Shown here in pieces: positions 7,258-35,050 of a DNA stretch of 41,032 bases. Location of the stretch: the IMG/VR virus record IMGVR_UViG_3300048061_000701, positions 1 through 41,032 of that record. The stretch is one strand, 5' to 3'. The position numbers and the translations under genes were made by a program. Numbering within the stretch: position 1 is the stretch's first letter; each line of letters starts with the position of its first letter. Under the pieces are notes generated by a model. That model was given only the letters and a program-made list of their open reading frames with translations. It did not search any database and was not told the DNA's origin. This DNA is from a virus.

Positions 7258-7260
7258 CGT

Positions 7261-8796: not shown

Positions 8797-8820
8797 TTGT
8801 TACCAATTATCCTATAGTTT

Positions 8821-8828
8821 TATTTATG
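8821..8828 (-). promoter_or_regulatory. T4-type late promoter motif for gp8 unit
   Basis: The minus strand reads CATAAATA, one base from the T4 late consensus TATAAATA. It lies just downstream of the TAA of the preceding gene (8832-8834) and 24 bases upstream of the gp8 ATG. That leaves room for a short leader. It should drive gp8 and the DUF4815 gene. Confidence 0.7.
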
Positions 8829-8831
8829 GGG

Positions 8832-12199: not shown

Positions 12200-12221
12200 G
12201 GTGGGTAGATTTCTACAGTGT

Positions 12222-12228
12222 TATTTAG
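12222..12228 (-). promoter_or_regulatory. Late promoter motif sharing a stop codon
   Basis: The minus strand reads CTAAATA. The TAA in it (12225-12227) is also the stop codon of the YHYH gene upstream. The motif ends 22 bases before the ATG of the gp10-like fibre gene at 12199. It is the likely late promoter of the fibre and 627-residue genes. Confidence 0.65.
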
Positions 12229-13817: not shown

Positions 13818-13828
13818 GGTTTTACTTT

Positions 13829-13835
13829 TATTTAG
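13829..13835 (-). promoter_or_regulatory. Late promoter motif sharing the giant gene's stop
   Basis: The minus strand reads CTAAATA, with its TAA (13832-13834) serving as the stop codon of the 7072-residue gene. The motif ends only 11 bases before the ATG at 13817. A T4-type start site a few bases downstream of the motif would give a very short leader without a Shine-Dalgarno. Confidence 0.65.
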
Positions 13836-16800
13836 ATGTCGTCGAAGATTTGATCTGGAGTGAAGTTACTAATCACAGTAGCACCAGTCTGGACCGTGAG
13901 GATAGCAGACAGTGAGTAAACAGGTGTAGCACCTGCAGCAGTAATTGCAACTCTGTATTCATCACCATCGTCTGCCTGAGCAGCATCGTTGGTATTGAAT
14001 GTTGACTGGTTAGCACCGATGATGTTACTCCAGGTCTGAGTGCCGTATTCCTTCTTCTGCCACTGGTAGTTGAGTTGCTGACTGTTGGAGACAGTAGCAG
14101 CAACCGTGAAGGATGCAGTCTGACCTTGGTTAACCGTTACGTTTACAGGATCCTGAGAGATCGCAATCGCGCCAGGAGTAATCGTAGTGGTGTCGCCATC
14201 AATTGCCTCATCAGCGTTGTAGATATCTCTACCACCGTTGACAGGCGTGCCTGAAGGATTAACAAAGTCGTCTGGGACAATATTGTCAATCTCAACTAAT
14301 GGTTGTAGATAAGAAACACCAGGGGTCTTCACGTCAATGCGTGTGATACCCATGAGTGCCTTGATACGACCATCGAAACCTGAGGATGAAATCACGTCCA
14401 CGTTGGGGCGTGAGGTGTAACCATCGCCAGAGTTGGTGAGGATTGCACTATTCAACTGACCAGAGCGGATTGTTGCCAATGCAGCAGCGTTACGTCCCTT
14501 AACAGATCCTGTGTATTCAAAGGTGATCAAGGAGTTTGAAGATTCGATCAGAGCAACGTCACGAGCGAATTCCTCACCATCAATCTCAAGTTTGTCACCT
14601 GCTTCCACAGGTGGCACAACGGTTGCAGCGATCACGTCAGTATCAGATCCAATGTAGGAGAATCCAACAAAGGTTGATCCTGCGCGAGGCACTTCAGCAA
14701 AGATGATTCTAGATCCGACGATCTCGTATGCGACGCCAGGTTCTTGAATAATACCGTTGAGTGAAACGATGATGTTGTTTTCTGGGCGAATCACGTTAGA
14801 AGAAACACCTTCAGTCAGAGTCAGCGAGTAGAAGAGACCTTCACGTCTGAGGTTGAAGGACGAGCGCAAGGAGTCAAACTCGAAGCTGATATCGTCCATC
14901 TGACGGAGTTTACCAACGTAGTAACCAACGAATTCAGATCCAATGTCAGGTGCCTCAGAGAAGTTAATCTTGTCTGAGAATGCAACGTAGGAGTTGTTAC
15001 CACCAGGAGGTTGTAGGATGCCATTGACGAAGATGAGCATGTGACCAGCGGGATCTGGGAAGTATGCTTCACCATTGCTGATCGTGAGATCAAACTGTGT
15101 CTGACTACCGTCGAAACCACGGAAGTAACGATCAACGCGACCCTCAAGCGTGCGTGCCTTAGCAACCACACCACCCCAACCATAGTCGGAGACGACGGTC
15201 ATATTGTTAAGGAAGTCACCCTTGACATTTTCCAACCAGACGGTTGCTGTGATACCCTGCTGGTCAATAGCAGCCACGCGCCCGTAGGAGTTATATGTAG
15301 TGTCTATGACCGAGGTAACGTTAGCGTAGATGCTTGGGAAGTTAGATCCAAGATCAAGTTTACCGATGTTATTAGATCCAATGGTAAGAGCAGTGATATC
15401 TTCACCCGTGCCTATAGGAATCAAGTTACCGATAAACAAGCGATGGATGCCATAGTTTGGATCAGCAGGATCTGCGTTGATGCCATTGATATATTCAGTT
15501 ACCGTTGCACGGAACCCAGGATCCTTCAGTGTGGTGCCTTGCAGGAGGACGACCTCATCACCAACACGGAATGTATCGGAAATGCCAGTGTCAACGATTG
15601 CAGTGCCAAGCTCCAACTGATAGATGTTGGTGCCGTGGATATACTGGTTAAGTTGAATCTGTGTGCCAGAGAGACCCTTAATTTCGAGGATGTAGTCAGT
15701 GACGCTACCGTAGATGATATCGCCAGCATCCCATGCATCTCCGATGGTTTCAACGTCAATCGTAATACGACCACCGTCATTACCTGTAAGAGATCCAGAC
15801 TTATTGAGATATGTGTTAGCGTATGCCTCAGTAGCAGATGCCTTGTCAAACAACCAGTCGCCCTGTGCGAATGATCCTCTCTCAACGTTAATCAACATGC
15901 GAGAATCGAAGGAGGTAACTTCGGCAGTCGTGCCACTATCAGCACCAACCAAGATATCGCCTACGTTGATCACACCCGCGACAGTAGTTAGATTGACGAA
16001 GTTGAGACCGTCGTTATCGGTCCTATCAGACTGGAGAATTATGCCAGAAACAGCAGGATTTGATTGGACTGTGATTTGCTCACCGTTCTGGAAGTTTTCA
16101 TAAACACCCAGATTCTGACTTACGTTATTCAGATTATAACGAGTATAGAGTCTGTTAATCTCTGCTTGGTTGAGCGAGATGCTACCAACTTCAGATGAAG
16201 ATTCAGACGTGGTGCCGTAGATAACATCTGCGGGGTTGAATCCACCCTGGATAGGAGTCTGTGAAGGATCTGCTGGGAAGAGAGAAGCAGACCTATCGAT
16301 ACCAGTACGTCTGACGACGGAGAAGATCTGCTGACCAGTGTTGGCAGTGTTAACTTCAATTCTTCTAAATCTACCATCGTGCATGTAGTGAGCACCAACT
16401 TCAAACCACTGTGCAGTGGCAGTCATCACATACCAGTACGTCTGACCAGTAAATGCTGCGACTGAAGTCTCAGATGCTGGGATATACTGTAGGATGTCAC
16501 CACGACGGAAGGAGTTAACGCGGTTAATTCTGACTCTATATTCAGCGCGGTCGAAACCAACGGGGACGATAGGAGTAAGAGTAACCAGAGCAGGATCAGT
16601 GTTATAGTCATAACCCAATTCATACTTGGTGTTGATGTTAACTGCATCGCTACTTGGGACCCAAGTAACGCTACCTTCTGTTGGGAATTTAGATGTCTCT
16701 AATGAATACTCAATGGCATTGATAGAGGAGTCAATGATAAATTCAGATGCCTCACGGTTGTAATCCAAACGACCATCGATACCTAACTGATAGGTATTGT

Positions 16801-19800
16801 AGGTTGTCCAACCAGGATCTTCAGTCAACTGATACAACACAGACTTGATATACTCACGCACGCGAGTGTTTGCATAGATCAAGTGTGTGCGAGCTATATC
16901 CTGGAATGCAATGAAGTTCCCTTCACCGTCAAACCAGTTTTGGACCAGTCTAAATGCACCTGCGTTACCGCCAGTGATCATGTCATATCTGACTGCCTTG
17001 AGGATGTCAGCACAGAAGTCCACTGTCATTTCAGTGGTGCCATAGTAAGTCACAGTTTCATCAAACGCTCTCTGTGCGATAGCATCTTTGTTAAAGAGCA
17101 GCATGTTAGCGATAGATTTGTCGGTATTTAATCCAGCGCCAAGAGTATCAACCATGATGTCAAACAAGGTGTCGATCGCGGATTGTGGTCCTTCACATGT
17201 ACCTTGCTGATAGTTGCTATTTGTGTAAGCGTCAAGTCTAGTTGTCCTAACGATGGAATCCAACTGATTTGTGTTGTTGTTTGCTGCGTTTTCAATTGTA
17301 TCGATGTAAATCTCAAGAAGTGTATCGATAGCAGAAGCAACTTCAGCACAAGTCTGATTCCACTCAGCAGCAGAGGAGTCGTAGGTAAGACCAGTGTCCC
17401 TAACCGCAATATCAGGCGTATATTTAATAGGCCAGATCTTAGGTAGGATGCTAACGCGGTTTGTAACATCAGCAGGATTGCTAATTGCATCTGTGACCAG
17501 TTGCATTAGAGTATCAACTTCGGTTGCAACATTATCAGACTCACTACCTGTGTAGATAGGATCGACCAGACGTGATCTGTAGTATGACATATCACCTGTT
17601 GTGTATGCCCATGATGCTGTAGGCTCTCCTTGTGGGACGGTGCTGTCAGAAGACATTGTGGCAAAACCACCAGTAGATCCCCCTGCCAGCAATCCACCTG
17701 CCTCATAAAGACCAGTGTTTAGTCCAGGAGTTGAAGCTTCACCAATAAGGTTGCCGTCAATCCAGAGTTTGACACGACCAGATCCAGAAGCAACTGTGCC
17801 GCCAACTCTAATTTCCCAAGTGATCTCATGCTCACCACCATCGAAGTAATCTGAGAGAGTAGAGACTTGGACATCAAGGAGTGCAAGACCGTTGTCGCTA
17901 GCAGTAGATGCACCACCTGCATAGGAGTTAGCACCATTACCAGCACGGAGACGGAGGTATGTGCCGCTGTCTCTGATACCAATGAATGCACCAGCACCGT
18001 TTCCACCAAGCTCCCAGAGGACGCCATCGCTAGGTGTGCCAGCAGGAAGCACGGTTACACAACTACAAACCAGATCTTCGTCATTGGTAATACCAGTTGC
18101 AGAAGCAGATCCACTTGCAATGTTGTTTGTGCCGTTGGTAAATGTGCGAGTAACGACGTTATTGTAATCTCCACCAAGAGTGATACCCTCATCAACCAAT
18201 GAATTGCGGAGCACCGTAGTAGGTTTGGGGACTGCCTCGGAGAATGCCTGGACGCCACCGCTGTATGATGCAACGTTAGTAATAATTTGACCACGCATTG
18301 CACGCTTCACAAGCCTCTTCGCTTCTTCCAGAATCCAATTTACCTCTGTTGCCAGAGATGTAACGTGTGCGAGAGATCCACTGTATGTTGTATAGAACTC
18401 AGATACCCAGTTGATCCAGTTGTCTCCATCGTACTTGAGGTTGAAGACCAGTGCTCTGAGGATGTCAGTCACGTCATGGACGCAATCGATGCTACCGTTA
18501 GAAACAACAGCACCTTCATGTGCATTGACAAAGGTATGAGTATATTGCTCACCTGCAGGAGATGCACCAACGTTGATCGTAATCGTATCAGTGGTATGTG
18601 CAGTAATTAATCTAGATGTGGTGTATGCAGGGTCACCTTTACGGGGATAGTAGTTGGTAACGTTGTTACCATCAAGTGTGCATGTAAATCCAATAGAATC
18701 AGGTCTAACGGTAACTCTGTTACCTGTAACCAAACCATGACCTGCCATGGTAATGACCATCTCACCACTTGATGCAATGTAAGTTGCATCCGATGGAGTG
18801 TATTGCTGACCACCGTAAATTCCACCGTTAATACTCAGTGAAGGATACTGTGTCTGACCTGCCTTAACTGCTTGCTCAGCAATCCAACGAATGTTTGCAT
18901 CAATAGCATCGGCACAATCAGCAAAGATTTGCTCTTTGGGATTTGCCTCGTATGTAGAAGGATCAACGTTATTAGGATCGTTGCCAGGGATATAATCTCT
19001 ACCGAAACCATTTCTCATGGTTATGGTTGCAATATCCTTAACAATTTTCATGACGGAGACAGTTGCTTCCCAATCGTCTTCGATGTGCTTCAGAGAATTA
19101 TTCTCTGGCTCAACGTAGAGATTTGCAGCATCCCATGTTCTTTCATTACAGTTGTAGTTGAGGTCATGGACAAGAGCCTTAAGGATATCCTTAACGTCAT
19201 CACTACAGTTAACAGGACCACCCTTGATTTGGAATAGGGCATACTTGGACATGTCATTCATTGTCTCGACTGCCTCATGTGCAATCAGATCAATGTTTGC
19301 CGCGATAGCATTGGTAGCATCCTTATAACGATTCCAGTTAGAAACGTTATCCTGAGGATATCCTTCATCATCGATAATGATGGTATCATCTCTAAATGCA
19401 CCACGGGAAGTATACAGAGGTGTATGGTAATCATCTTGTGCCCATGCTGGGATACCAAGATCTCCAGAAACTTCTCCAGGAGAAAGGAGCAAGTTGTTAC
19501 CTGCTTTCTGTGTGAGATACTTGGCATGATGGAATGCATCAAGCATTGGATTCAACTCATGCTCAACATGAAGGATGTTGTTTTGATCATCCAGATAATT
19601 ATCAATGACTGCTTCCACATTGTATGTGCCACCCGTGCAAAGGTCAGCAATCACAGCAGGGAGAATGAATTGCTTAACATCCCTCTCGCAGTATGGTTGA
19701 CCATAACCAGGCATTTCCAAGAACTGTGTGAGCGTGCCATTGAGGTCAATCTCATACTTATTAAGGATGTATCCAGCAACTTCTTCTGCGATATAGTCGC

Positions 19801-22800
19801 GGTTTTTCCAGACCAAGACACCAGTGTCTCTGAAAATATCAGGATTAGGTGCAAGGACTTCTAGCACTTCACGACCCAGAGTATCAAACTCATCTTGGAT
19901 GGATTGAGATGCAGGAGTTGCGAAGTTGTTGGGAAGTCTCAATCTGTTTGTATAGGTGCCAGTCAGAGTTGTGTCAGTTGTAGTAATTACATACTTACAA
20001 AGGACGAATGCCTGATCCCATGCATACAGAGTTTGTAGAATCTCGTTACCAACGTGCTTCAGTTTGCCTGATGCTTCGAGGTAAGTACGAGCGGTGTATA
20101 GTGAGTTGTAGTTACCACCGTCTCTCAAGTCCTTGACAAGAGCGCCGATGATGTAGTCTTTAGTATCCCTGATACACTTGTTGGTGCCACCATAACTACC
20201 TTCGGCCACGTTGTTGCCTGGGATGACAAAATCAGGGAATGCTGCTTCCATTCTACCGACTGCTTCTTCAGCAATCCAGGCAGCGTTAAGATCGATAATA
20301 TCAGCACAGTTTCTGTGATCTGATCTACCAAGATCAACGTTTTCAATGATTGCAAAGTTTTGATCGTAGTTAAGTTCCTTGATAGCAGCAGAGGAGATAC
20401 GCTGACCAGTGTAGATAGCATATGTTTCCTGATTATCCATGACGAATGGTTGCTCACCGTCAAGACCAAACTTCACATACTGGTTAGAGTAGTCGATCTG
20501 AGTAGGAGGCACGAATCCAGTGTTGAAGTCGGACTCTCCATTCTTAACAACCACGTTGTCCATGTAACCAGTAAACTGATTGGCAGCGTTGAAGTCAGCG
20601 CCGACGTAGATAGCAGCATAACCATAATCGTTGGTATCAGCGTAGTTGCCACCAACCTGCACGCCATCAACATAGAGTTGTAAGACGCTAGTAGTCCTGA
20701 CAACTGCAACGTGATGCCAGTTATTAGCAAGCAGCGTGCCACCAGTCAGCAGTTGAGATGTGCCGTTGTAGACAGTGATTGCACCAGAAGTCTGCAGAGT
20801 AATTCTCAAACCAGCGGTAGCAGACAGACGACGGAAGTCAAACAGATGCTGAGTTGTGCTCAGGTTATCTGCTCTAAACCAACCTTGGACAGTAAAGTCT
20901 GCAGTATTGCCGAAGGAGAAGTCGTAACTATCTTTAGTGACCAAATATCCAGTAGATGGGAATTTGATAGACTTCTTACCGCTAAGTCTCTTGTATTTCT
21001 CGATAACACTTAGAGAAACACCGTTTTGGTTAGCAGTGGTGGAGTTGGTAATATACTCACCATCCTGGAATGATCCAGTAACAGCGTCAGCAAAGATCCA
21101 CTTCAAACCAGAGTTAGATCCAATTGCTTCAAATTGGGCACCGCTAGTAATACCAGTAATGGTGTCGCCAACGATAAACAAACCACCCGCACGATCCTTA
21201 TATGCAATCTTCGTGGTGCGGATGTTTTCACCAGCAACGAAGGTGCCATCAGTGATGCTTGCGAGAGCGTTAATATTATTGAGATTTTGTGCTGCAATCG
21301 CAGTCGTAGAGATGTCTACGAGCGTAGCGATATATGCCTGGACGTTAGCACAATTCTGGATTGTTTCATTTCGGCCTGAGTAGTAATTAGGGTCGAAATA
21401 CTTGGCAGTTGTGCCACCGCCAGTGAAGACTGCATTATCCAGTCCCTTGACGAATGTATGTGTATATCCACCGCCACTACTGACTGAATTGGCAGAAGCA
21501 GAAACGAATGTGTGAGCATACTGCTGATCAGCAGGAGATGCTGCAACGTTAACCGTAATGGTGGTTGCATCAGCACCATGGATAAACAGACGCTTGCCAG
21601 ATGCAGGGTCAGTAGATCTAGGATATGTGTGAGTGGTGCCATTAGCATCCATATCACATGTGAATACCAACGAATCGTTAGCAATAGTCACATAGTCATT
21701 GATTTCAAGACTGTGGGATCCAATAGTCAATACCATATCACCCGTTGCTGGATTGTAGGTAGCAGCAGTTGGTGTGAATTGGACCAGAGGAGATGCGCCA
21801 ACGTTGACTGTGATTGTAGTGCCAGTCTCAGCACTAATAGCAAGAGGAGTGTTGAATGCAGGATCTCCAGCACGAGGATAGTCGTGGAAGGATGCATCGT
21901 TATCCGAATCACAAGTAAACTTCAGAGAGTGTGGACGGATCGTAACAGTATCCGAAGTTGTCAGTGAGTGAGTGCCAATGGTAAGAACCATTTGACCATT
22001 TGAAGGTGTGTAGACTGCAGCAGACACATCGAATTCTTGCAGGTCATCTTCACCACCGCTGTAGGATCCTTGATATGTTGTAGGATCTTTCAGCATGAAT
22101 CCAGTGACAGAAGTCCTGGAATTGACTTGATAATAGAGGAGGTTGTTGATTGCCTGGAAGGACAAGTGCATTGCCTTATCGATAGCAGTCAGAGATTCTG
22201 CATACTCACCGATTAGACCGTTAGCAATAGGTGCTCCAGCAGCATCGAAATACTTCTTAGTGAATTCGATGATGTTGTAGTTACCACCCTGAGAAACGTC
22301 TTCTGCCAAGGCATCGATCATCAGACCGATGTCACGACGACACTTGATTTGACCAGGAGAATAGGTGCCTTTCGACTCATCAGGGAGGTCAACCAGCGTG
22401 CCATTCAGCAGAGTCTCATCAACCACATCATAGAGAGTGGTGATTGCTGCTTGGACATCGCTGCAGTTGTCAGTGCCATTGTTAGACTGGTTAGCACCGT
22501 TAGTGCCATAAGGATCGTTAGGTGATGGGTCAGCAGTGATACCGTTGCCATCATAACCACCATGATCTACCTCGCTCCAAGGAACGTAAGTGATACCTTG
22601 ATTAGGTTGACCACTTGGCACAGTGAAACTATTAGTCAGATTGTTGACGATTGCCAACTTCATCATGTCTTTTGCTTTTTCAAATCCATAACGAGTCTCA
22701 GCAGACTCATTGTTGACATACACAAAGTTGCCATCTACATCAAAATACTTGGCACAAAGTTTACGAGTATAGACATTACCACCACGGAAAATGTCAATGG

Positions 22801-28800: not shown

Positions 28801-31800
28801 GGTTGACAACACGTCCACCCACCGTAGGAATCTGCTTGATCCAATCCATCTCAAGGTTTGCACCATCGTAGAAGAATTCACCGAAGATCAAGTCATCATT
28901 TTGATCATTAACACCAATAAAGAAGAATCTATCATCGGAGATCATCATGATCTGATGCATTTTCTCAGAATCATCCTGAGATGCAACCTTACGCTTCTCA
29001 ACCAGATCGCCTTCAATACCACACTGGATGATCCACATGTCATCGGGATCAACAGAGTTAGTATCGGTATAACCGCAAAGGTAGATACGTTGCTCCTGAT
29101 CAAGAGCGATAGAAGTTACAAAGTCTCTTCTGGTGCTACCAGAGATACCAGCAATTGCTCTCTGCCACTGCAGGATACCGTCAGGATCGTTTGCATTGTT
29201 GAATCCAGACTCATAAAGTCCTAACCAGATGTCTGGGTTGTACGTGTCGTTGTCAGGATTCTTTGTTTGGCCTGTAACATATATGAGGTCGTTTTCTGGA
29301 GCAGCATTGACCACCATCTTGAGGAATTCAGCCCTCTTCTGGTTGGCATTGGTAGGAATGAGAGTTCTCTCCCAGATCTTCTGACCCAAGTCGTCAAACT
29401 TGGCAAGGAACGCAGACTCATCTCCATCTGTCTCGGTAATCTTACCGCAGATATAGGTATTGCGTTGTGAGGTTACCTTGATATCATTAACATTAATGAT
29501 ACCATCTGCTTCCATGTATTCGGTCAACCAATAGCGAGTTTTCTTAAACTGCTGTGGATGGGAAACACGGATTTGTGGAGGATTCTCAGGATCATAACCA
29601 TTACCAGAGTTGATAATGTTGACACTGCTGATCTGACCAGTATTTTGTAGGACAATCTCTAGTTGACCATCCTGACCAGCAGATGTGATCAATTCAAACG
29701 TAGGAGGAATATCTTCGTTGTAACCAACACCACCCTGAGTTACATTGATACGCTCAATGCCAGACACAACCTTAACTTTGAAGTTTTTGTTGGTGTTATC
29801 AATAACAGGGGATGAGTTAAGAATCAACTCATCTTGCTGACGCAAGTCGTGATTAGCTGATGTATTAATCACACCATATGGACGATCACCAATGATCTCC
29901 TTACTGTATGATTGGATGCTTTGACCCTTAACAGATTCGATGAATGCCGAAGCACCGAAACCACCAGTATCTCCATCGTCAAAGAAGATGGTATCATTAA
30001 CCTGATAGGAAACACCAGGGTTTTCAATAACGAAACCGTCGATCTGAGCATCTTCAAACTGAGTAGTTGTCTCAACTTCGATGTCAACTCTAGACTCTTC
30101 AGAAACCTGAGGGAAGTAATCATAGATTTGTAGAGTTGCCTCTTCAGACATCTCTAGGACTTCTTGTTGCTCATTAGCATCAATGATTCCGTCGTTATTA
30201 CTGTCCTGGATCTCAAAGATGAGAGGATATCCTTCAATCTCAGTCGTCAGTACATCTGCTTCCTGGTTAGGTTGACGATCAACATCAATATCAACGTTGA
30301 CATAAGGATCTCTATATCTTACAACGTCTTGAGGAATGTTTTCCTGGGTTGCACCCTGAGTAAAGTTCCATGGATCAGGCAGTGAGTTAAACTGAGGACC
30401 AAGGATATATGGGAATTCAGCAATACCTGCTTCCGATGCATCAATAGTAATAAAGTATGCATAGGTGCCATCAGGATACTGAGGTGTCTTACAGAAACGA
30501 CCGTTATAGTTGTCGAGATCGCCAGACTGGAAGTCATACTCATAGTCAGCAACAAACGATCCAGCAGGATATGAGGACAGCTCAGGTCCATCAACACGAG
30601 CAGGATTGGGGTTAGTTGCTAAGTCATATACAACGTTATCTTTTAGTTTATATGAAGTGCGAAGTCTTCTGATTCCGCTATTCTGGTCAGTTGGGTCAAT
30701 GTAACCGTAGGGACCGTAGATTGGGTTACCATCATACGCCCAACCCAGAATAGGAGAGTGCTCATAGTTGGATTCAACTTCTTGGAATTGTTGTGTAACT
30801 GCATTAAGGAAGACGTTATCGCCAACCACATAGCGGAGTTCTTTAGGATCACTAAGGTGAGCATATTCACCACCGAACTGGTTATTACGACCAGTAAAGA
30901 CGTATCCTCGTGCTCCATCATAATTAGTGGCAAGATCATACTGAAGGTTTTTATTCCACTCAAAAACTTGTGGAGTAAACTCAGCAAAGTCACCGACAGA
31001 CTCAAGTCTGACAGTAGTAAGACCTTGGGTATATCCAATACCTCTGTTAGTGATCTCAACACTAAGGACTCTACCTTTATCTTCGCCAATAGTGCCAATT
31101 ACTGCTCGTGCAATAGCACCAAAACCATCACCATTAATGATGATCGTGGGAGCAGTAGTATAACCACTACCAGAGTTAATAATAGCAATAGAAACAATAC
31201 GACCATTGATAACAATGGGTTGTGCCAAAGCACCTTCACCAGAGTTAACTCGGATACTAGGTAACTCAGTATATCCACTACCATTGGCAGTGATGCTAAC
31301 ACTCTGAATAGGACCACGGACGTTTGCCTTTGCTAAGGCACCTGTACCACCGCCACCAGTAACTGAGACGCTAGGTTGTGAAGTATACCCTGTGCCTGGT
31401 TGCTCAACCAGGATTCTGGTGACACGACCACCTGTTACGATAGCTTGTGCAGTTGCTCCGATACCACCACCGCCAACGATGGAGACCAGAGGAGATTCTG
31501 TGTATCCGCTACCTTGTTCAGTAACGTCAAATGAAGTTAGACTACCATTAACAACAACTTCACCAGTAGCACCTGTACCGCCACCACCAGTGATTTCCAG
31601 AGCAGGTTTGGATCCTGCATCATAGTCCTGACCAGTGTTACTAACTGTGATGCCAGTCAGTGGACCGAATCTAACAAAGTCGCCAGACTTATATGCCCAG
31701 ATAGACACACCATTCACCCAAGCACCAATCGAGGTGTTTGCTGAGATGTCTTGACGCTCGGAAATCGTTTGGACTAAACGGGGGAAACGGAGCAGCTTGC

Positions 31801-34800
31801 GCTGGTTACCAGGAATCAGTGCTGATCCTGTGAAAGGACCAACCTTATAGTTGGGTAGACCAGAGGAAGCAACATAAACATAATCAGCATTGAAGAAGGA
31901 GTTTTGGATGTTCGTTGTAAACTCACTAACAACACTGTTAATGGAATTGATATCGGACTTACCTCTGTTAAGGTCCACAGAGAGAAGAATGTTACCTTCT
32001 GGAATAATTTCTGTAGGTGTATTAATCTGATATGTAAACTGCAGTGTATCGATACGGGAAGTAACGGTAAACGTGCCGTTGAATACAACAGGGTTAGCAC
32101 CATAAATCGTCACCTGATCAGATACCAGGAGACCATGTGGGTTATCACAAACAACTGTAGCAGTTTGGTTGTTAACACCACCAGGAGTGACAGTATTAAC
32201 CTGAATCAGTTTCTTAACGTTGTATAACCAAGAAGATAATCTCTCATCTTCAGATGAAGATCCGAGTTTAGCAACTTTTAGTTTGTCGCCTTGCAGATAG
32301 TAAGATCCAGTATCTTCCAGGATCGTTGTACCTGCTTCTGCAATACCAAGCACTCTGAGTTTACACTCAGTAGATGTACCCTTATTGACATAGACAAAAA
32401 TGTCAGAGTATACAATCGTGCCAGGATCCCAATCTTCTACAACACCATTTTGAGATCTGGTGCATTCGATAAACTGGTTAAGTGATTTCTCCTTATACTG
32501 TGCAGTCTCTACATCGTTAATACGAATGGTGCCGTTTCTTTCTGGCCATCCAATCGTGGAGTCAACGGTAATAATCTGACCTGTGGTGGTCAGTGGCTCA
32601 ACTAGAGTAGTCTTATAAGGGATGATGAAACTACCAGATAGCGTCTCTTCTGAGATTGCCAATTCGTAGATAGTGTCCTTACCTTCAATAATGGTAATGA
32701 CGTTTTCAATCAGAGCATTTGCTGCCTTGACACTAAGGTCAACAGGATCAGCATACTGAATAAGTTGAGAATCGATGAGATTTCCAGGATCACCTGAAAT
32801 CAATTCAGCACGCAGAACAGTATCAACAACCCATGTTGCAGCAGATGGGGAAATGATCTCATCTCTAGGATAGTAGATCTCCACCTGCTCACCAAACATG
32901 ATCTTAAACAGATACTGTGTGGAAAGCTCAGTACCTTTACTGATGTAGAAATCAGTAATGCTCTTAATTACTTGAATTGGATTGATTGAAGAGTAATCAA
33001 TCTCAATAGTGGGGAGATATTGTCTTCTAAACTTATCAAAGACTTCTCTGATGAACAAAGAGTCTAGGTTGATAACTGTAGACGCTGCTGGGTGAGTAGA
33101 CTGACGCAGTGTTGCTTCACCAGCGTAGATCTCATTATGGAGGTTGTCATATCCAACAGCACCAGATACACCACGACTACATCCTAGGAATGCAGAAGGG
33201 GAATATCCACTACCTCTTTCAATGATCTCGTAACCAGTCAGTTCATTGAAACCAACAGCAACAGATGCTCTTGCCGATTTAGGCTCGGCAATGTAAATTT
33301 TAGGGGGCTCTGTTTCAGAATATCCACTACCGAAGTTGGTAATGTTGATATCCGTGATCTGACCATTAAAGATAGTTGCAGCAGCAGTTGCTCCTGTGCC
33401 ACCAATAGGATCGCCATATGGATCCTTTCTATCGTCAACAATGTACACAGAAGGAGCATCGGTATAACCGTTGCCACCTGTTAGCATTTCAATATTGGTG
33501 ACGTTACCAGATGCAACAGTAACATCGAGAACCTGAGCACCAATAGGTTGAATGATCCTTGCTCTAGGTGGGGTTGCATACCCTCTACCTCTATTCGTAA
33601 TAACGATCTCGTAGACTTGACCGTCTTGGTTGATTCTAGAGATTGCCTGAGCGTTGATGCCGCCTTCAGGTGCAGGATCTAGATAAACAATAGGAGGATT
33701 GCTATAGTTCAGTCCAAATTCTTCGACAGCAATACTGTCAATGTTTACACGACCTTCACTATCAATTGTAGGTTGACCAATTTTACAACCACCAGGATTG
33801 GCAAAAGAAATTGCAGGGATAAAATCATATCCACTACCAGAATTCATGATAGTTAGACTATCAACCTGACCAGTTACATCATCTACGGTTAGGGCAACCT
33901 TTGCCAGTGTACCACCTGTAGGAGCGCCTACAAGAGCGATAGGAGGGTTATATGACGTGTAACCCTGTCCACCATCAATTAGGTTAATATTCTTGATGCC
34001 ACTAACCAAAGTTTTGGCAGTCGCACCCACACCTTCACTGTGTTGGACTACAACTTTAGGTGCAAAATCTAGTCTATAACCACTACCACCAGTTTTAGGA
34101 ATTAGGCGGTCAACTTGACCAAAATTATCGACAGAGACAACTGCAGATGCTCCAGATCCAAAATTTGGGGCAATATACTCAACAGAGCGAATATGAATAT
34201 TATCAGCGCCACCCAGTGGGAATCTAAAGATAATTTCACTTCCATATACGGTATAGTCGGTATATGGCTCAAGTTGGCGATTGTTTTTCTTGACAATCAG
34301 ACCAATCGCTGAAGTTGGGGTATATGGTTGTGTATTTACTCTGAGGGGATATTCTTTCTTACTTTGATATTCTTCAAAGGGTACTGCATCAGTTGTGACG
34401 ATCGTTTGATCGGCATACCCAACCAAATATATAATTTCAGTGAATGCAGAGTCGTCAGCACCAGATCTTTCACGGGGAGCAACGGCAAAGCGAATCTCAT
34501 CGCCCTCAAGGAAATAATCAGTCCCAGGGACTAACATTTCATTGTATACAACAACAATTAGGTGATCTACTGAAGGGGGATTTACAGGAGTGCCTAAAAA
34601 GTTAAGAGGGAATTTATTTCTAGTCCCATCGAACAACTGGAAAGGATTTTCTAGTTGTTGTTTCTTTTTATCAAATTGTGCAGGAGAAACACCTGGAGTG
34701 ACAATAGCATCAGGTCCACGAGTAACATTCTCGTAGTAAATTACCTCATTATCAATCTTGATAGATCCATCGGTCGCTTTGAAACCATCAATCGCCTCAA

Positions 34801-35050
34801 TTCTGATAGTCTTATCGTTCAGACCAATATCACTCAATAAGAGTGTATCATTTGACAGTTCGTCTGAGGTATAACTATCGAGATCCAAATAACCCAGAAG
34901 GTTATTCAGGATATCGTAAGGACGACCTGTTTTTTCTTGAGACTTGTAATATTGTAAGAGAAAGTCAACAAATTGTTGATCTTCCTCCCTAATAAATTCT
35001 GGGAGTTGATTTGCAACTCTATCCGAAATGTTAATATTCTTGTGTGGCAT
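13832..35050 (-). CDS. gp7: Giant gp7-like baseplate wedge/adhesin, 7072 residues
   Basis: A single uninterrupted 21.2-kb frame between gp6 and the gp10/gp8 group, the position of T4 gene 7 (1032 residues). Residues 1-45 (PEFIREEDQQFVDFLLQYY) and 657-764 (DFYISKGTELSTQYLFKIMF, then GEQVEIYYPRDE) match the T4 gp7 segments I recall (DFYSTKGIEASYKFLFKVLY, NEEVEI). Residues 3534-3587 (YVIKSEIPITKWKTQI, HPAGFQLFG) match T4 YVMKIKSNLPSSRWKSDVI and HPVGFGF. Approximate order: GSGY block 296-640; gp7 segment; GSGY 1130-1350; YHYH-like 1363-1560; GSGY 1660-1830; seven-bladed propeller-like 1860-2225; LamG-like 2243-2440; two CBM5/12-like units 2652-2787; degenerate cupredoxin-like 2940-3064; GSGY 3090-3325; gp7 segment 3534-3587; Cys helical array 4043-6080 with LamG-like inserts; NGIIQEPG modules; GSGY; Ig-like 6962-7055. 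I infer a wedge protein expanded with receptor- or glycan-binding modules. Confidence 0.9.
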   Translation of the reverse strand: MPHKNINISDRVANQLPEFIREEDQQFVDFLLQYYKSQEKTGRPYDILNNLLGYLDLDSYTSDELSNDTLLLSDIGLNDKTIRIEAIDGFKATDGSIKIDNEVIYYENVTRGPDAIVTPGVSPAQFDKKKQQLENPFQLFDGTRNKFPLNFLGTPVNPPSVDHLIVVVYNEMLVPGTDYFLEGDEIRFAVAPRERSGADDSAFTEIIYLVGYADQTIVTTDAVPFEEYQSKKEYPLRVNTQPYTPTSAIGLIVKKNNRQLEPYTDYTVYGSEIIFRFPLGGADNIHIRSVEYIAPNFGSGASAVVSVDNFGQVDRLIPKTGGSGYRLDFAPKVVVQHSEGVGATAKTLVSGIKNINLIDGGQGYTSYNPPIALVGAPTGGTLAKVALTVDDVTGQVDSLTIMNSGSGYDFIPAISFANPGGCKIGQPTIDSEGRVNIDSIAVEEFGLNYSNPPIVYLDPAPEGGINAQAISRINQDGQVYEIVITNRGRGYATPPRARIIQPIGAQVLDVTVASGNVTNIEMLTGGNGYTDAPSVYIVDDRKDPYGDPIGGTGATAAATIFNGQITDINITNFGSGYSETEPPKIYIAEPKSARASVAVGFNELTGYEIIERGSGYSPSAFLGCSRGVSGAVGYDNLHNEIYAGEATLRQSTHPAASTVINLDSLFIREVFDKFRRQYLPTIEIDYSSINPIQVIKSITDFYISKGTELSTQYLFKIMFGEQVEIYYPRDEIISPSAATWVVDTVLRAELISGDPGNLIDSQLIQYADPVDLSVKAANALIENVITIIEGKDTIYELAISEETLSGSFIIPYKTTLVEPLTTTGQIITVDSTIGWPERNGTIRINDVETAQYKEKSLNQFIECTRSQNGVVEDWDPGTIVYSDIFVYVNKGTSTECKLRVLGIAEAGTTILEDTGSYYLQGDKLKVAKLGSSSEDERLSSWLYNVKKLIQVNTVTPGGVNNQTATVVCDNPHGLLVSDQVTIYGANPVVFNGTFTVTSRIDTLQFTYQINTPTEIIPEGNILLSVDLNRGKSDINSINSVVSEFTTNIQNSFFNADYVYVASSGLPNYKVGPFTGSALIPGNQRKLLRFPRLVQTISERQDISANTSIGAWVNGVSIWAYKSGDFVRFGPLTGITVSNTGQDYDAGSKPALEITGGGGTGATGEVVVNGSLTSFDVTEQGSGYTESPLVSIVGGGGIGATAQAIVTGGRVTRILVEQPGTGYTSQPSVSVTGGGGTGALAKANVRGPIQSVSITANGSGYTELPSIRVNSGEGALAQPIVINGRIVSIAIINSGSGYTTAPTIIINGDGFGAIARAVIGTIGEDKGRVLSVEITNRGIGYTQGLTTVRLESVGDFAEFTPQVFEWNKNLQYDLATNYDGARGYVFTGRNNQFGGEYAHLSDPKELRYVVGDNVFLNAVTQQFQEVESNYEHSPILGWAYDGNPIYGPYGYIDPTDQNSGIRRLRTSYKLKDNVVYDLATNPNPARVDGPELSSYPAGSFVADYEYDFQSGDLDNYNGRFCKTPQYPDGTYAYFITIDASEAGIAEFPYILGPQFNSLPDPWNFTQGATQENIPQDVVRYRDPYVNVDIDVDRQPNQEADVLTTEIEGYPLIFEIQDSNNDGIIDANEQQEVLEMSEEATLQIYDYFPQVSEESRVDIEVETTTQFEDAQIDGFVIENPGVSYQVNDTIFFDDGDTGGFGASAFIESVKGQSIQSYSKEIIGDRPYGVINTSANHDLRQQDELILNSSPVIDNTNKNFKVKVVSGIERINVTQGGVGYNEDIPPTFELITSAGQDGQLEIVLQNTGQISSVNIINSGNGYDPENPPQIRVSHPQQFKKTRYWLTEYMEADGIINVNDIKVTSQRNTYICGKITETDGDESAFLAKFDDLGQKIWERTLIPTNANQKRAEFLKMVVNAAPENDLIYVTGQTKNPDNDTYNPDIWLGLYESGFNNANDPDGILQWQRAIAGISGSTRRDFVTSIALDQEQRIYLCGYTDTNSVDPDDMWIIQCGIEGDLVEKRKVASQDDSEKMHQIMMISDDRFFFIGVNDQNDDLIFGEFFYDGANLEMDWIKQIPTVGGRVVNPTMVMDDYGAIIVAWDIFNSAASKYDKIQINKFLLSTAQTEWDWSKTVTTAGDFLGMHHAGISYDQWGNYTLVSDVTEAQNQRYSVITYMKYDGTLLHQTKVDDTTNIGFQATTHALDNSGDTILAVNRQQSDQLASWRMGNSANPVEDTTKQQLGTYNYFSQSDITHDAAVYKFDGGSLKFNDVAPITIADLGLTPLEWSGRMWMSMNTTAWNTAHEPTLLHFNDATNTNSITATIKGDNTDPDYQKVILYLNGTQVASSVAATNWDAFAAAAWVHITVQKRQESLGLYRYEVFVGGNQQISYQSTTDVALDDVVICGPVSSPTVANSFRGNIDDFVLDDAAPYSGTSYTVPTSEIAITTSNSDVALIKFDRAHTQRAAYTLTGLSNYSNIAFTDHTIGMTWTSVSPGAISTWLEGPGGLQILDMSQTFSTLIPGTYTLSSAYDQYASKTSTIPSPRGKRLIISADVIPKFYLRDALYQKIDNVQEFTFTQPLKLTQYSILQQFNNVGTTTAFATITEVPAGSLRNPGIGTKYRVGKIFGTFNNTDRFRTTTLGGDINQIEGTYFDTIEEESPWVASTAYAQGDRVYNQKRIYEAQGAGTSGTISPQHNTGVVTDGVINWAFIDDAGKFTLDLTEHPFPRPQYTGLDMPEWLPHRLYAVGQRVWYKLNVYQVAVGGGGVTTPTPPTHTTGDVSDGSVTWSFVETNEAISQYTRLMPYDQGNNYSIEILEVQPGSNFIPNDVVSVNTNNITLAEDEKSVEISGFASVKKIRVTARLEKDILLASSVRTDKVYCTSNSPHFYKEGEIIFAEGFSGAQYNGSFFIDDVIGSREFTFGIRDTAVSDPTFVNNGIANVNIYAKHPTLIFTRNHQYNFELSDPSNFGYYLSFSQDNQYKLEYSFNNTVREGTPGIQGAGASTPFVKFLVLGDVTNISYYFDPSRTGSNSPVGENSYIDVITTPYQGRFRISEIVSDTEFKFPLNREPERNNAEIGSDDQGNEYSYYSTTSTRAVGPINTIKLVSPGGFYKKLPIISDIASFRQIEKVEVIDGGTEYAPGVYYDVPVNGDGEGGKVTVTVLLDDETGSGAISSVAVADPGKGYTVASVDIDAITGILGPTLSGSGGAVSVNIPSEGTGASVFLTGRNIGKIKRLKNNEFGFGYSHDYTLKPEITFPVNLQLFNTSILSEIKITDPGAGYTSTPAVVIDGGGGTGADAVAVIKNNRLNEIIIKNPGAGYSSEPVVTLKSEFNYVVNLDLNYLQFNFPHGITTGAEIQFRSEDVGSTEGILPKPSSAGLTALIAGQVYYAIAGQANSLESDQIRFGLTLQSAQAGDYITFLTQGSGRQVLLTEVFGGKAEAVVATSRFLEGEEVFQGSAIELASATGKVSTNTGWQIGPKILKIVDYDGDWKMGEKVTGSISKASGVIDNMSIARGVLNIGSLTKTPGKFIDNVGKPSEIVQKIQDSFFYQNFSYVIKSEIPITKWKTQILENNHPAGFQLFGQLQLVGGKDVSGRKVGTEFTKEVNINNYSNVNQITSFGAAQPIYTDYNNTEVLFRKKRLTSSEEILTSIVKKLDDISPQFNGIDKQFPITVEGEQVIVQQNQLLITINGVIQAPGVSYTIVGGQIVFGEPPKPASRVNYRSLEITPTVIYRIELYSGQAGPPNFGIFPTLGQQVQGKDSDVVATIIDSGTTHIDVINLVGGSFNLNEEITRGTLFSALVQSVTAINSDTIFQFGESITNLEGDTAIIEETNIDGDGNVTDAIVVSKTSGTAQFETGIFDLRLNEFVYSASSKIAGQITFISPYIDPATQDAVDELIINPGSTFYGLLFERLVSITNPNVIIDNISQSSITPTELYDSSSRINADFLDFEEVRNTEVQYTQLAGGNFSEGDIVINNRANYGNPSSVFHGVATNRFKDASAMILGNKDQIIDFAEAEIAVKHPRFYFPGDIITNSWSRYSDAYRLIQKNKSYIANKAYDEMMTQYTSLTVPDPNKCIRDLELYIDAISIDIFRGGNVYTRKLCAKYFDVDGNFVYVNNESAETRYGFEKAKDMMKLAIVNNLTNSFTVPSGQPNQGITYVPWSEVDHGGYDGNGITADPSPNDPYGTNGANQSNNGTDNCSDVQAAITTLYDVVDETLLNGTLVDLPDESKGTYSPGQIKCRRDIGLMIDALAEDVSQGGNYNIIEFTKKYFDAAGAPIANGLIGEYAESLTAIDKAMHLSFQAINNLLYYQVNSRTSVTGFMLKDPTTYQGSYSGGEDDLQEFDVSAAVYTPSNGQMVLTIGTHSLTTSDTVTIRPHSLKFTCDSDNDASFHDYPRAGDPAFNTPLAISAETGTTITVNVGASPLVQFTPTAATYNPATGDMVLTIGSHSLEINDYVTIANDSLVFTCDMDANGTTHTYPRSTDPASGKRLFIHGADATTITVNVAASPADQQYAHTFVSASANSVSSGGGYTHTFVKGLDNAVFTGGGTTAKYFDPNYYSGRNETIQNCANVQAYIATLVDISTTAIAAQNLNNINALASITDGTFVAGENIRTTKIAYKDRAGGLFIVGDTITGITSGAQFEAIGSNSGLKWIFADAVTGSFQDGEYITNSTTANQNGVSLSVIEKYKRLSGKKSIKFPSTGYLVTKDSYDFSFGNTADFTVQGWFRADNLSTTQHLFDFRRLSATAGLRITLQTSGAITVYNGTSQLLTGGTLLANNWHHVAVVRTTSVLQLYVDGVQVGGNYADTNDYGYAAIYVGADFNAANQFTGYMDNVVVKNGESDFNTGFVPPTQIDYSNQYVKFGLDGEQPFVMDNQETYAIYTGQRISSAAIKELNYDQNFAIIENVDLGRSDHRNCADIIDLNAAWIAEEAVGRMEAAFPDFVIPGNNVAEGSYGGTNKCIRDTKDYIIGALVKDLRDGGNYNSLYTARTYLEASGKLKHVGNEILQTLYAWDQAFVLCKYVITTTDTTLTGTYTNRLRLPNNFATPASQSIQDEFDTLGREVLEVLAPNPDIFRDTGVLVWKNRDYIAEEVAGYILNKYEIDLNGTLTQFLEMPGYGQPYCERDVKQFILPAVIADLCTGGTYNVEAVIDNYLDDQNNILHVEHELNPMLDAFHHAKYLTQKAGNNLLLSPGEVSGDLGIPAWAQDDYHTPLYTSRGAFRDDTIIIDDEGYPQDNVSNWNRYKDATNAIAANIDLIAHEAVETMNDMSKYALFQIKGGPVNCSDDVKDILKALVHDLNYNCNERTWDAANLYVEPENNSLKHIEDDWEATVSVMKIVKDIATITMRNGFGRDYIPGNDPNNVDPSTYEANPKEQIFADCADAIDANIRWIAEQAVKAGQTQYPSLSINGGIYGGQQYTPSDATYIASSGEMVITMAGHGLVTGNRVTVRPDSIGFTCTLDGNNVTNYYPRKGDPAYTTSRLITAHTTDTITINVGASPAGEQYTHTFVNAHEGAVVSNGSIDCVHDVTDILRALVFNLKYDGDNWINWVSEFYTTYSGSLAHVTSLATEVNWILEEAKRLVKRAMRGQIITNVASYSGGVQAFSEAVPKPTTVLRNSLVDEGITLGGDYNNVVTRTFTNGTNNIASGSASATGITNDEDLVCSCVTVLPAGTPSDGVLWELGGNGAGAFIGIRDSGTYLRLRAGNGANSYAGGASTASDNGLALLDVQVSTLSDYFDGGEHEITWEIRVGGTVASGSGRVKLWIDGNLIGEASTPGLNTGLYEAGGLLAGGSTGGFATMSSDSTVPQGEPTASWAYTTGDMSYYRSRLVDPIYTGSESDNVATEVDTLMQLVTDAISNPADVTNRVSILPKIWPIKYTPDIAVRDTGLTYDSSAAEWNQTCAEVASAIDTLLEIYIDTIENAANNNTNQLDSIVRTTRLDAYTNSNYQQGTCEGPQSAIDTLFDIMVDTLGAGLNTDKSIANMLLFNKDAIAQRAFDETVTYYGTTEMTVDFCADILKAVRYDMITGGNAGAFRLVQNWFDGEGNFIAFQDIARTHLIYANTRVREYIKSVLYQLTEDPGWTTYNTYQLGIDGRLDYNREASEFIIDSSINAIEYSLETSKFPTEGSVTWVPSSDAVNINTKYELGYDYNTDPALVTLTPIVPVGFDRAEYRVRINRVNSFRRGDILQYIPASETSVAAFTGQTYWYVMTATAQWFEVGAHYMHDGRFRRIEVNTANTGQQIFSVVRRTGIDRSASLFPADPSQTPIQGGFNPADVIYGTTSESSSEVGSISLNQAEINRLYTRYNLNNVSQNLGVYENFQNGEQITVQSNPAVSGIILQSDRTDNDGLNFVNLTTVAGVINVGDILVGADSGTTAEVTSFDSRMLINVERGSFAQGDWLFDKASATEAYANTYLNKSGSLTGNDGGRITIDVETIGDAWDAGDIIYGSVTDYILEIKGLSGTQIQLNQYIHGTNIYQLELGTAIVDTGISDTFRVGDEVVLLQGTTLKDPGFRATVTEYINGINADPADPNYGIHRLFIGNLIPIGTGEDITALTIGSNNIGKLDLGSNFPSIYANVTSVIDTTYNSYGRVAAIDQQGITATVWLENVKGDFLNNMTVVSDYGWGGVVAKARTLEGRVDRYFRGFDGSQTQFDLTISNGEAYFPDPAGHMLIFVNGILQPPGGNNSYVAFSDKINFSEAPDIGSEFVGYYVGKLRQMDDISFEFDSLRSSFNLRREGLFYSLTLTEGVSSNVIRPENNIIVSLNGIIQEPGVAYEIVGSRIIFAEVPRAGSTFVGFSYIGSDTDVIAATVVPPVEAGDKLEIDGEEFARDVALIESSNSLITFEYTGSVKGRNAAALATIRSGQLNSAILTNSGDGYTSRPNVDVISSSGFDGRIKALMGITRIDVKTPGVSYLQPLVEIDNIVPDDFVNPSGTPVNGGRDIYNADEAIDGDTTTITPGAIAISQDPVNVTVNQGQTASFTVAATVSNSQQLNYQWQKKEYGTQTWSNIIGANQSTFNTNDAAQADDGDEYRVAITAAGATPVYSLSAILTVQTGATVISNFTPDQIFDDI
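13890..14165 (-). other. C-terminal Ig-like domain of the giant
   Basis: Residues about 6962-7055 read VTVNQGQTASFTVAATVS, then YQWQKK and IIGANQSTF, ending in LSAILTV. This is the phage-type Ig-like fold seen again at the C-terminus of the next gene. Such domains usually decorate virion surfaces and bind weakly to carbohydrates or cell surfaces. Confidence 0.75.
14270..14500 (-). repeat. GSGY repeat block E in the giant
   Basis: Two units near the C-terminus of the giant: ILTNSGDGYTSRPNVDV and IDVKTPGVSYLQPLVEI. They are separated by a Gly-containing turn and sit just before the terminal Ig-like domain. Confidence 0.65.
17600..18160 (-). other. LamG-like domain 3 in the giant
   Basis: Residues about 5630-5817 have a jelly-roll pattern: LWELGGNGAGAFIGIRDSG, then GGEHEITWEIRVGG, VKLWIDGNLIGEAST and a Gly-rich end. 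This is the concanavalin/LamG layout with the typical xLxIDGxLIG strand. The call is from pattern only. Confidence 0.55.
18510..18810 (-). repeat. Beta repeat, copy 3
   Basis: The third copy of a roughly 90-residue unit: GEMVITMAGHGLVTGNRVTV, FTCTLDGN, YPRKGDPA, TTDTITINVGASP, YTHTFVNA. It is inserted inside the sixth helical module, between its two Cys helices, so the two repeat families are nested. Confidence 0.75.
20490..20995 (-). other. LamG-like lectin domain 2 in the giant
   Basis: Residues about 4685-4853 carry the full LamG_3-type pattern: KSIKFPSTGYL, DFTVQGWFRADN, NWHHVAVVRTTSVLQLYVDG, and FTGYMDNVVVKNG. This is the most convincing of the three jelly-roll domains. LamG_3 domains are common carbohydrate- or protein-binding modules, so a receptor-binding role is plausible but inferred. 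Confidence 0.8.
21510..22025 (-). repeat. Beta repeat, copies 1 and 2 in tandem
   Basis: Two tandem units: GQMVLTIGTHSLTTSDTVTI with FTCDSDND, YPRAGDPA and TITVNVGASP; and GDMVLTIGSHSLEINDYVTI with FTCDMDANG, YPRSTDPA and TITVNVAASP. The nucleotide sequences are also alike (for example around 21533 and 21788 on the plus strand), which suggests recent duplication. Confidence 0.8.
23880..24320 (-). other. Region after the distal gp7-like segment
   Basis: Following the gp7-like HPAGF segment, residues about 3577-3724 include LTSSEEILTSIVKKLDD and a module LLITINGVIQAPGVSYTIVG ending IVFGEPPKPAS. The NGVIQAPG/IxF module recurs twice near the C-terminus (NGILQPPG and NGIIQEPG) and once near residue 170 in variant form. 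It is a common phage fibre or baseplate module. Confidence 0.6.
25080..25780 (-). repeat. GSGY repeat block D in the giant
   Basis: Residues about 3090-3325 contain units VEVIDGGTEYAPG, VAVADPGKGYTVASV, IKITDPGAGYTSTPAVVI and IIIKNPGAGYSSEPVVTL, with GGGGTGADAVAVI-type turns between them. The spacing is close to 38 residues in the regular part. Confidence 0.75.
25860..26240 (-). other. Degenerate cupredoxin-like domain in the giant
   Basis: Residues about 2940-3064 follow the cupredoxin pattern seen in phage fibres: PTLIFTRNHQYNFELSDPSN, GYYLSFS, then VKFLVLGDVTNISYYF. The positions that would carry the His and the Cys-His-Met loop are absent, so it should not bind copper. The comparison with the intact-looking domain at 10715-10960 supports a shared fold. 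Confidence 0.5.
26690..27095 (-). repeat. Two CBM5/12-like modules in the giant
   Basis: Two units at residues about 2652-2707 and 2732-2787: SPWVASTAYAQGDRVYNQ with IYEAQGAG and GVINWAFID; and PEWLPHRLYAVGQRVWYK with VYQVAVGG and GSVTWSFVE. The WxxxxxYxxGxxVxYxxxxY...W layout is that of short aromatic carbohydrate-binding (CBM5/12-like) modules, which in other proteins bind chitin or related glycans. Confidence 0.7.
27730..28320 (-). other. LamG-like domain 1 in the giant
   Basis: Residues about 2243-2440: AAVYKFDGGSLKFND, then LEWSGRMWMSMNTTA, VILYLNGTQVASS, AAWVHITVQKRQ, and FRGNIDDFVLDDA. The order of strands and the closing IDDFxLxDxAxY segment are typical of LamG-like jelly rolls. Confidence 0.75.
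28370..29470 (-). repeat. Seven-bladed propeller-like repeat in the giant
   Basis: Residues about 1860-2225 hold seven consecutive units of a blade pattern: YICGKITETDGDESAFLAKF, IYVTGQTKNPDN, IYLCGYTDTNSVDPDDMWII, FFFIGVNDQND, AIIVAWDIFN, YTLVSDVTEAQ and TILAVNRQQSD. Most are followed by a segment of the form xKxDxxGxxxWxRxI. This resembles SBBP-type or quinoprotein-like beta-propellers. Seven units would close one propeller. Confidence 0.7.
29560..30070 (-). repeat. GSGY repeat block C in the giant
   Basis: Residues about 1660-1830 include FVIENPGVSYQVNDTIFF, INVTQGGVGYNEDIPPTF and VNIINSGNGYDPENPPQI. The units are less regular here, with a longer insertion between the first and second. 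Confidence 0.7.
30380..30960 (-). other. YHYH-like domain in the giant
   Basis: Residues about 1363-1560 include YEHSPILGWAYDGNPIYGPY, a TSYKLKDN segment, SGDLDNYNGRFCKTPQ and AYFITIDASEAGIAEFPYIL. These match the YHYH-family half found in the 530-residue gene (AFDGFPIYGPYAY, GDLDIHNGRFCITPE). The literal YHYH tetrapeptide is missing here. Confidence 0.75.
31000..31660 (-). repeat. GSGY repeat block B in the giant
   Basis: This is the most regular block, residues about 1130-1350: VTEQGSGYTESPLVSIVGGG, VEQPGTGYTSQPSVSVTGGG, ITANGSGYTELPSIRVNSGE, IINSGSGYTTAPTIIINGDG and ITNRGIGYTQG. The period is about 38 residues. The consensus is [VI]xxxGxGYxxxPx[VI]x[VI]xGGGGxGAxAxAx[VI]. Confidence 0.85.
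32760..33080 (-). other. T4 gp7-like segment, proximal
   Basis: Residues about 657-764 of the giant (FIREVFDKFRRQYLP, DFYISKGTELSTQYLFKIMF, GEQVEIYYPRDE). These align by eye with the C-terminal third of T4 gp7 as I recall it, including KG-x-E-x-S-x3-LFK and E-x-VEI. Confidence 0.7.
33150..34160 (-). repeat. GSGY repeat block A in the giant
   Basis: Residues about 296-640 contain about eight units, including IPKTGGSGYRLDFAPKVV, LIDGGQGYTSYNPPIALV, IMNSGSGYDFIPAISFAN, ITNRGRGYATPPRARII, LTGGNGYTDAPSVYIVDD and ITNFGSGYSETEPPKIYI. They alternate with GGTGATAAA-type turns. Confidence 0.85.

Follow-up and report, generated by a model that had tools for sequence, protein, structure and literature searches.

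gp7 is the initiator of the baseplate wedge, and giant forms of it are already known: they make up the family phrog_701, and a 7312-aa protein of phage P-SSM4 (AAX46881.1) is annotated as gp7, 'baseplate wedge initiator'. For four more giant proteins, from P-TIM40, S-SZBM1, S-WAM1 and P-RSM6, the annotation goes no further than 'virion structural protein', 'hypothetical protein' or 'baseplate wedge initiator', and the annotation rows examined do not mention phycobiliproteins. For S-SZBM1 the name 'baseplate wedge initiator' stands on two genes, 208 and 205. The product of gene 208 appears in the structural proteome of this phage, in a table row giving 724.20, 6619, 71 and 13.5% (PMC9146016), figures taken as kDa, residues, peptides and coverage, respectively.

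The protein described here is encoded in a window of 41,032 bases (the whole stretch analysed, IMG/VR virus record IMGVR_UViG_3300048061_000701) from a virus of ocean cyanobacteria. Every large frame of the window lies on one strand. The giant frame and its main neighbours are as follows:

37292..37705, minus strand: gp25-like baseplate wedge protein (Pfam GPW_gp25, E 1.1e-16)
35056..37290, minus strand: gp6-like baseplate wedge protein (Pfam Gp6-like_1st, E 5.6e-17; also PHROG)
13832..35050, minus strand: giant gp7-like baseplate wedge protein, 7072 aa, matched by phrog_701 end to end, piecewise
12225-13817: separate YHYH protein adjoining the giant, with an Ig-like domain at its end
8832-10715: phrog_708 protein, carrying G.GA.A repeats
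7261-8796: gp8 (phrog_438)
1-7257: further giant frame, phrog_358, at least 2419 aa, cut by the window end

ORF analysis of the giant gave 7072 codons with an ATG start and zero internal stops, in agreement with the single uninterrupted frame reported in the first-pass annotation, and a predicted mass of 769 kDa. The frame is unlikely to be an assembly artefact: a 441-aa stretch of it recurs with 100% identity on four other viral contigs, within open frames of 3390-4168 aa, and orthologues of 6180-8573 aa are present in isolate genomes. The genes are arranged in the order phrog_22792 protein, PAAR protein, unknown, gp25, gp6, giant, YHYH protein, gp9-like protein, phrog_708 protein, gp8 and phrog_358 protein. 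The giant is thus the gene directly after gp6 in the gp25, gp6, giant order of the baseplate cluster. The gene-7 place that had been assigned to it between gp6 and gp8 is correct on the gp6 side, but gp8 is not adjacent, as the YHYH, gp9-like and phrog_708 genes intervene.

A YHYH module occurs both in the separate protein at 12225-13817 and in the giant (30437-30880), and by their sequence matches YHYH and Ig modules seem common to these neighbours, the Ig match near the end of the giant being weak. The G.GA.A repeats of the phrog_708 protein (8832-10715) resemble those in the giant. A part of gp6 at about 35596-35778 (residues ~505-565) is glycine- and cysteine-rich, with weak EGF-like Pfam matches below the cut-off.

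The giant was divided into three core segments, two inserts and a C-terminal extension:

34856..35032, minus strand: core segment N, residues 7-65, a helix with FVDFLLQYY; its profile is common to 17 other gp7s
33077..34855, minus strand: insert 1, residues 66-658; in compact gp7s no equivalent separates N from M
32540..33076, minus strand: core segment M, residues 659-837, KGTELSTQYLFKIMF and the stretch after it; matched to T4 gp7 in PDB, E 3.2e-7
24503..32539, minus strand: insert 2, residues 838-3516, with Pfam matches to YHYH (1391-1538) and, weakly, to a beta-propeller repeat (1970-1997)
24134..24502, minus strand: core segment C, residues 3517-3639, from FSYVIKSEIPITKW to HPAGF
13835..24133, minus strand: C-terminal extension, residues 3640-7072, missing from compact gp7s

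The gp7-like strings quoted previously were all located in the giant, FVDFLLQYY at residue 27, KGTELSTQYLFKIMF at 705, YVIKSEIPITKWKTQI at 3550 and HPAGF at 3570. The three segments were traced in 21 more gp7-position proteins from 20 phages (B23 contributing two frames), and search profiles were made without Straboviridae sequences. Among 177,635 PDB sequences the M profile matched two T4-type gp7 proteins (E 3.2e-7 and 2e-6), the sole matches below E 1 (next 1.3). The C profile placed the same two on top but weakly (E 0.03 and 0.057; next 0.48). In a further search, of 54 ORFs encoded by the corresponding stretches of T4, V09 and AS-yj, T4 gp7 was found with E 3.7e-8 by the M profile (next unrelated frame 3) and with E 4.3e-4 by the C profile (next unrelated frame 4.3); it was also the top match of the N profile, at a non-significant E of 10. 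The expected resemblance of all three segments to T4 gp7 therefore held by profile for M and weakly for C, and was not significant for N on its own. In an hhalign comparison of the pf16, Marzo and XG4 proteins with those of T4, V09 and AS-yj, pf16 1-207 was aligned onto T4 640-834 with a probability of 96.7, the separate alignment of the C segment being weak (probability 3.9). Judged by these comparisons, homology to gp7 is strong for M and weaker for C, and the assignment of N would follow from collinearity and from the hhalign alignment of compact with T4-type gp7s.

No counterpart of the first ~640 residues of T4 gp7 was found in the giant, and a PDB search with residues 1-1000 alone gave a single insignificant match (E 0.62). 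A predicted fold of a compact gp7 relative had a pLDDT of 35.8, too low for use on the packing of the core. The Pfam domains Gp7_helical, Gp7_5th and Gp7_6th, present in T4 gp7, were not matched by the giant at E 0.1. This lack of T4-type gp7 domains, together with the match of most of the length to modules common to tail fibres and other virion families, would suit an unrelated tail-fibre-like protein standing in the gene-7 place, with motif matches due to chance. The same three domains were likewise absent from all five other non-T4 gp7s tested (pf16, XG4, Marzo, phiM7 and S-CRM01). Chance resemblance is ruled out by the matches to T4-type gp7 in PDB and in the ORF set and by the collinear segments, which continue through the compact gp7 series, and we regard an unrelated fibre as highly improbable.

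In T4-type gp7 the M and C profiles matched positions 720-759 and 862-911, with ~100 residues between them. In the giant, N and M are ~590 residues apart, the gap from M to C amounts to ~2,680 and another ~3,430 follow C. The split of the core was thus upheld, and a second interruption, the ~590 residues between N and M, was added to the single one noted before. The core is considered to be interrupted twice because compact gp7s (419-1006 aa) keep the same segments close together. Segments N, M and C occupy residues 6-66, 59-202 and 358-459 in pf16, 12-69, 67-200 and 310-400 in XG4, and 8-53, 77-188 and 377-443 in Marzo; M comes directly after N in pf16, XG4, phiM7 and most compact gp7s on other contigs. 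The Gp7_5th domain of T4 (766-861) lies at the position taken by insert 2 in the giant.

The three segments are collinear across the compact and giant gp7s compared. The gene after gp6 encodes 419 aa in XG4, 503 in Marzo, 523 in pf16, 1006 in phiM7, 1032 in T4, 1165 in V09, 1167 in AS-yj, 1454 in S-CRM01, 1942 in S-H34, 3515 in S-RSM4, 3884 in S-CAM9, 4314 in S-CAM7, 4458 in MED4-213, 6180 in S-SM1, 6619 in S-SZBM1, 6737 in S-WAM1, 7072 in the window, 7312 in P-SSM4, 7351 in P-TIM40 and 8573 in P-RSM6. The gp7 of B23 consists of two frames of 2845 and 1081 aa; the frame break (stretch 7014-18793) falls behind segment C, giving the impression that the extension can be detached from the core. 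We infer, from how widely compact forms are distributed and without a rooted tree, that insertion rather than loss produced these differences. A conserved wedge core can apparently be stretched from 419 to more than 8,500 residues with its order kept. Residues 1-1000 of the giant match 476 of 50,697 phage records, 290 of them covering at least 80% of the query. The expansion, put forward earlier as the unusual feature, belongs to an already annotated family, and the unusual content of the protein is its C-terminal extension.

The extension contains seven copies of a repeat unit of ~105 residues, with an additional half unit at residue 3991, and two other recognizable domains:

22667..22951, minus strand: unit 1, residues 4034-4128, CIRD at 4072
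22166..22468, minus strand: unit 2, residues 4195-4295, CRRD at 4237
20546..20947, minus strand: concanavalin-like LamG domain, residues 4702-4835 (Pfam Laminin_G_3, E 2.7e-18)
20006..20320, minus strand: unit 3, residues 4911-5015, CIRD at 4959, covered by the structural match
19517..19837, minus strand: unit 4, residues 5072-5178, CERD at 5121
19034..19330, minus strand: unit 5, residues 5241-5339, CSDD at 5282
18314..18928, minus strand: unit 6 in two matched parts, residues 5375-5428 and 5496-5579, CVHD at 5523
16853..17119, minus strand: unit 7, residues 5978-6066, cysteine absent
13955..14161, minus strand: weak Ig-like domain, residues 6964-7032 (Pfam Ig_3, E 0.0033, below cut-off)

Pfam PF00502 (Phycobilisome) matched residues 4037-4101 above cut-off (E 3e-7). 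A unit profile was built from 42 units, six from the window and 36 from eight named cyanophages. Searched against PDB, it gave 131 matches at E up to 10, the best being phycocyanin alpha (1.6e-6), and the 60 of these that were listed are all phycobiliproteins except one 'bacterial fluorescent protein'. In the PDB alignment the cysteine of the unit falls on the chromophore cysteine of kCxRD. Taken one by one, the units matched PF00502 weakly: 13 of the 42 had a match at E 1 or lower, the strongest being 2.4e-4. Whole phage records matched PF00502 in 8 of 18 cases at E 0.01, above cut-off in 3, and among 14 control genomes Synechococcus elongatus was the only one matched.

An AlphaFold2 model of the three units in residues 4905-5345, made with 47 sequences, had a pLDDT of 82.1 and a pTM of 0.65. 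Model residues 1-163 were matched by VIA-align to phycoerythrin 7ssf_F with Z 17.4 and an rmsd of 1.9 Å over 140 residues. Rank 50 still had Z 15.7, whereas chance matches between helical proteins are put at about 14 for the top row and between 6 and 13 for rank 50, and 49 of the 50 listed rows were phycobiliproteins or phycobilisomes, the remaining one being a bacterial fluorescent protein. These rows cover one of the seven units; the others were assigned by sequence. Foldseek with the three-domain model gave no PDB match with E below 0.1, its listed rows comprising 36 phycobiliproteins out of 50 and four haemoglobins. Among viral models there were 22 matches at E 0.001 or better, to Synechococcus-phage, uncultured-phage or unnamed proteins. 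The phycobiliprotein fold is identified, for one unit by the model and for the family by the profile. No prior report of such domains in the virion proteins of phages was found among titles and abstract openings of the open-licence literature, and the novel element is the array of units in the extension, not giant gp7 itself.

A tblastn search of 50,697 phage records at E 0.01 found the three-unit region in 362. Cyanophages account for 361 of these (283 Synechococcus, 60 Cyanophage and 18 Prochlorococcus entries), the last record being 1 Marine virus, and with a single unit as query at E 1 there were 361 records of the same make-up. With the unit profile, units were detected in 10 of 18 records and then in 3 of 4 further ones; none were found in T4, pf16, phiM7, V09, Marzo, S-CRM01, S-CAM9, S-H34 and P-SSP7. 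A second large frame also bears units in S-RSM4, MED4-213, P-HM1, P-HM2 and S-PM2, and in B23 and S-CAM7 the units are confined to frames differing in length from the gp7 frame. Since units lie outside the gp7 frame in several phages, the module is mobile among giant proteins of the virion. A scan of genome contigs for host copies, whose reach was limited to close relatives, with distant copies beyond it, gave 5 loci, four of them in marine MAGs and one in a Nonlabens assembly. The 188-kb contig of the Nonlabens xiamenensis assembly, with a three-unit region of 49% identity, is probably a cyanophage contaminant, and we infer that all five loci are phage contigs.

The Asp of phycobiliproteins contacts the chromophore. 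In the giant, Cys is kept in 6 of 7 units and full CxRD in 4 of 7, unit 7 having lost both Cys and Asp. Among the 42 units of the window and the named phages Cys is present in 33, Asp in 38 and CxRD in 22. Of 335 distinct, nearly complete units on 80 marine contigs belonging to one clade, 302 have Cys, 316 Asp and 191 CxRD; loss of the two residues is coupled in this set (302/0/14/19), which reflects few events. These units fall into nine clusters: six large ones with Cys in 98-100%, one of 31 units of the unit-7 type with none, and two singletons. In P-SSM4 the cysteine is present in 0 of 3 units and none of the three keeps the chromophore residues, so that a pigment role common to all units is less likely.

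Of the 13 records with units, 12 encode a CpeT-family lyase, compared with 0 of 9 unit-less ones (Fisher 2e-5, kinship not corrected), and for cyanophages only in 12 of 13 compared with 0 of 4 (12/1/0/4; 0.002, kinship likewise not corrected). B23 is the sole unit-bearing record without CpeT. A bilin reductase is encoded in 6 of 22 records, namely all six unit-bearing Prochlorococcus phages and none of the seven unit-bearing Synechococcus phages. P-SSM4 possesses both reductase and CpeT and has no cysteine-bearing unit, and this mismatch is the clearest result against a simple link between units and bilin genes. A link of units to a CpeS lyase was rejected, as CpeS was found in 1 of 22 records. 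That record, S-H34, has neither units nor CpeT and carries the CpeS-type lyase instead.

We lean towards the explanation that the units are pigment-free, serving as stiff helical spacers or adhesion domains derived from a cyanobacterial gene, with the Cys used for a disulfide, a metal site or packing. The units kept by P-SSM4 without Cys and Asp, and unit 7 without either, are in line with it, as are two large clusters in which Asp or His stands in place of the Arg of CxRD; a metal might be bound by the His that 52% of distinct units have at unit column 79. Against it stand the near-complete retention of Cys in six large clusters whose units have diverged and the retention of the chromophore-contact Asp together with it, and one highly conserved Cys column per unit is ill-suited to an intra-domain disulfide. 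A covalent bilin on the units is possible, though less likely than not. It is on balance unlikely that host or phage bilin enzymes load the units so that they sense light or give photoprotection while the phage adsorbs. For this speak CxRD itself, described in PMC10151467 as the motif through which phycobiliproteins and related bilin-binding globins attach their bilin, the distribution of CpeT and the reductase in all unit-bearing Prochlorococcus phages. Against it stand the small, kinship-uncorrected co-occurrence counts, the reductase and CpeT of P-SSM4 beside units without cysteine, the units of B23 without CpeT and the CpeS of unit-less S-H34.

Light-dependent adsorption has been described for cyanophages (PMC2984593, PMC7112961). 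P-HM2, a myovirus with 6 units, was modelled with near-zero adsorption in the dark and the podovirus P-SSP7, without units, showed no light effect (PMC7112961), which favours bilin-bearing units. The effect has been ascribed to host photosynthesis (PMC9229316), which weakens that case. P-HM1 and P-HM2 have 6 units each and are the same species by the P-HM1 record. P-HM1 reportedly adsorbs in the dark, a further point against pigmented units. The tie of the array to light-dependent adsorption is circumstantial, and its action as a light sensor of adsorption is improbable. The fullest form of the bilin reading, in which units of gp7 and of other giant tail proteins (S-PM2, P-HM2) would receive covalent bilins through host or phage reductases and CpeT-type lyases and would be the missing acceptor and possibly a light sensor, seems rather unlikely. 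If true, it would explain the bilin genes of cyanophages, the role of which is called a mystery in PMC3037559, and could underlie light-dependent adsorption. A bilin-attachment fold with its cysteine in a virion protein makes both questions directly testable.

Whatever the units carry, the giant is very probably a cyanophage gp7, the wedge initiator, with its core in the wedge, two long insertions and an extension with phycobiliprotein-fold units and LamG. As in T4, segments N, M and C would most likely pack together with gp25 and gp6 to form each wedge. The core would initiate the wedge and keep it together, and the two insertions would project from it as arms. The 3,430-residue extension, with seven units and a lectin-like LamG domain, would probably form the outer, cell-facing part of the baseplate used for adsorption. 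The presence of six copies, their position in the virion and the adsorption role of the extension are presumed.

Compared with known systems, T4 gp7 (1032 aa; PDB 5hx2, 5iv5) shares with the giant the M and C segments and the gene order after gp6. It differs in the ~100 residues between M and C, in its own N-terminal 640 residues and in the T4 record being without phycobiliprotein-fold units. The gp7 of P-SSM4 resembles the giant in its place after gp25 and gp6, segment order, size and the presence of units (three), whereas its units are without cysteine and its next gene is gp9 instead of the YHYH protein. The orthologues of P-TIM40, S-SZBM1, S-WAM1 and P-RSM6 are the nearest named relatives, with 57.6-63.4% identity over residues 1-1000 and the unit order of the giant. 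In relation to phycobiliproteins (phycocyanin, phycoerythrin, allophycocyanin; PF00502), the match of a unit begins near residue 26 and the VIA-align rows at 25-35; any N-terminal X-Y helical hairpin would lie before residue 4905, where the model starts. The units differ from these proteins in their low identity (10-17% in the VIA-align rows) and in their tandem fusion inside a virion protein, and share with them the fold over 140 residues, Cys and Asp in most cases and CxRD in part.
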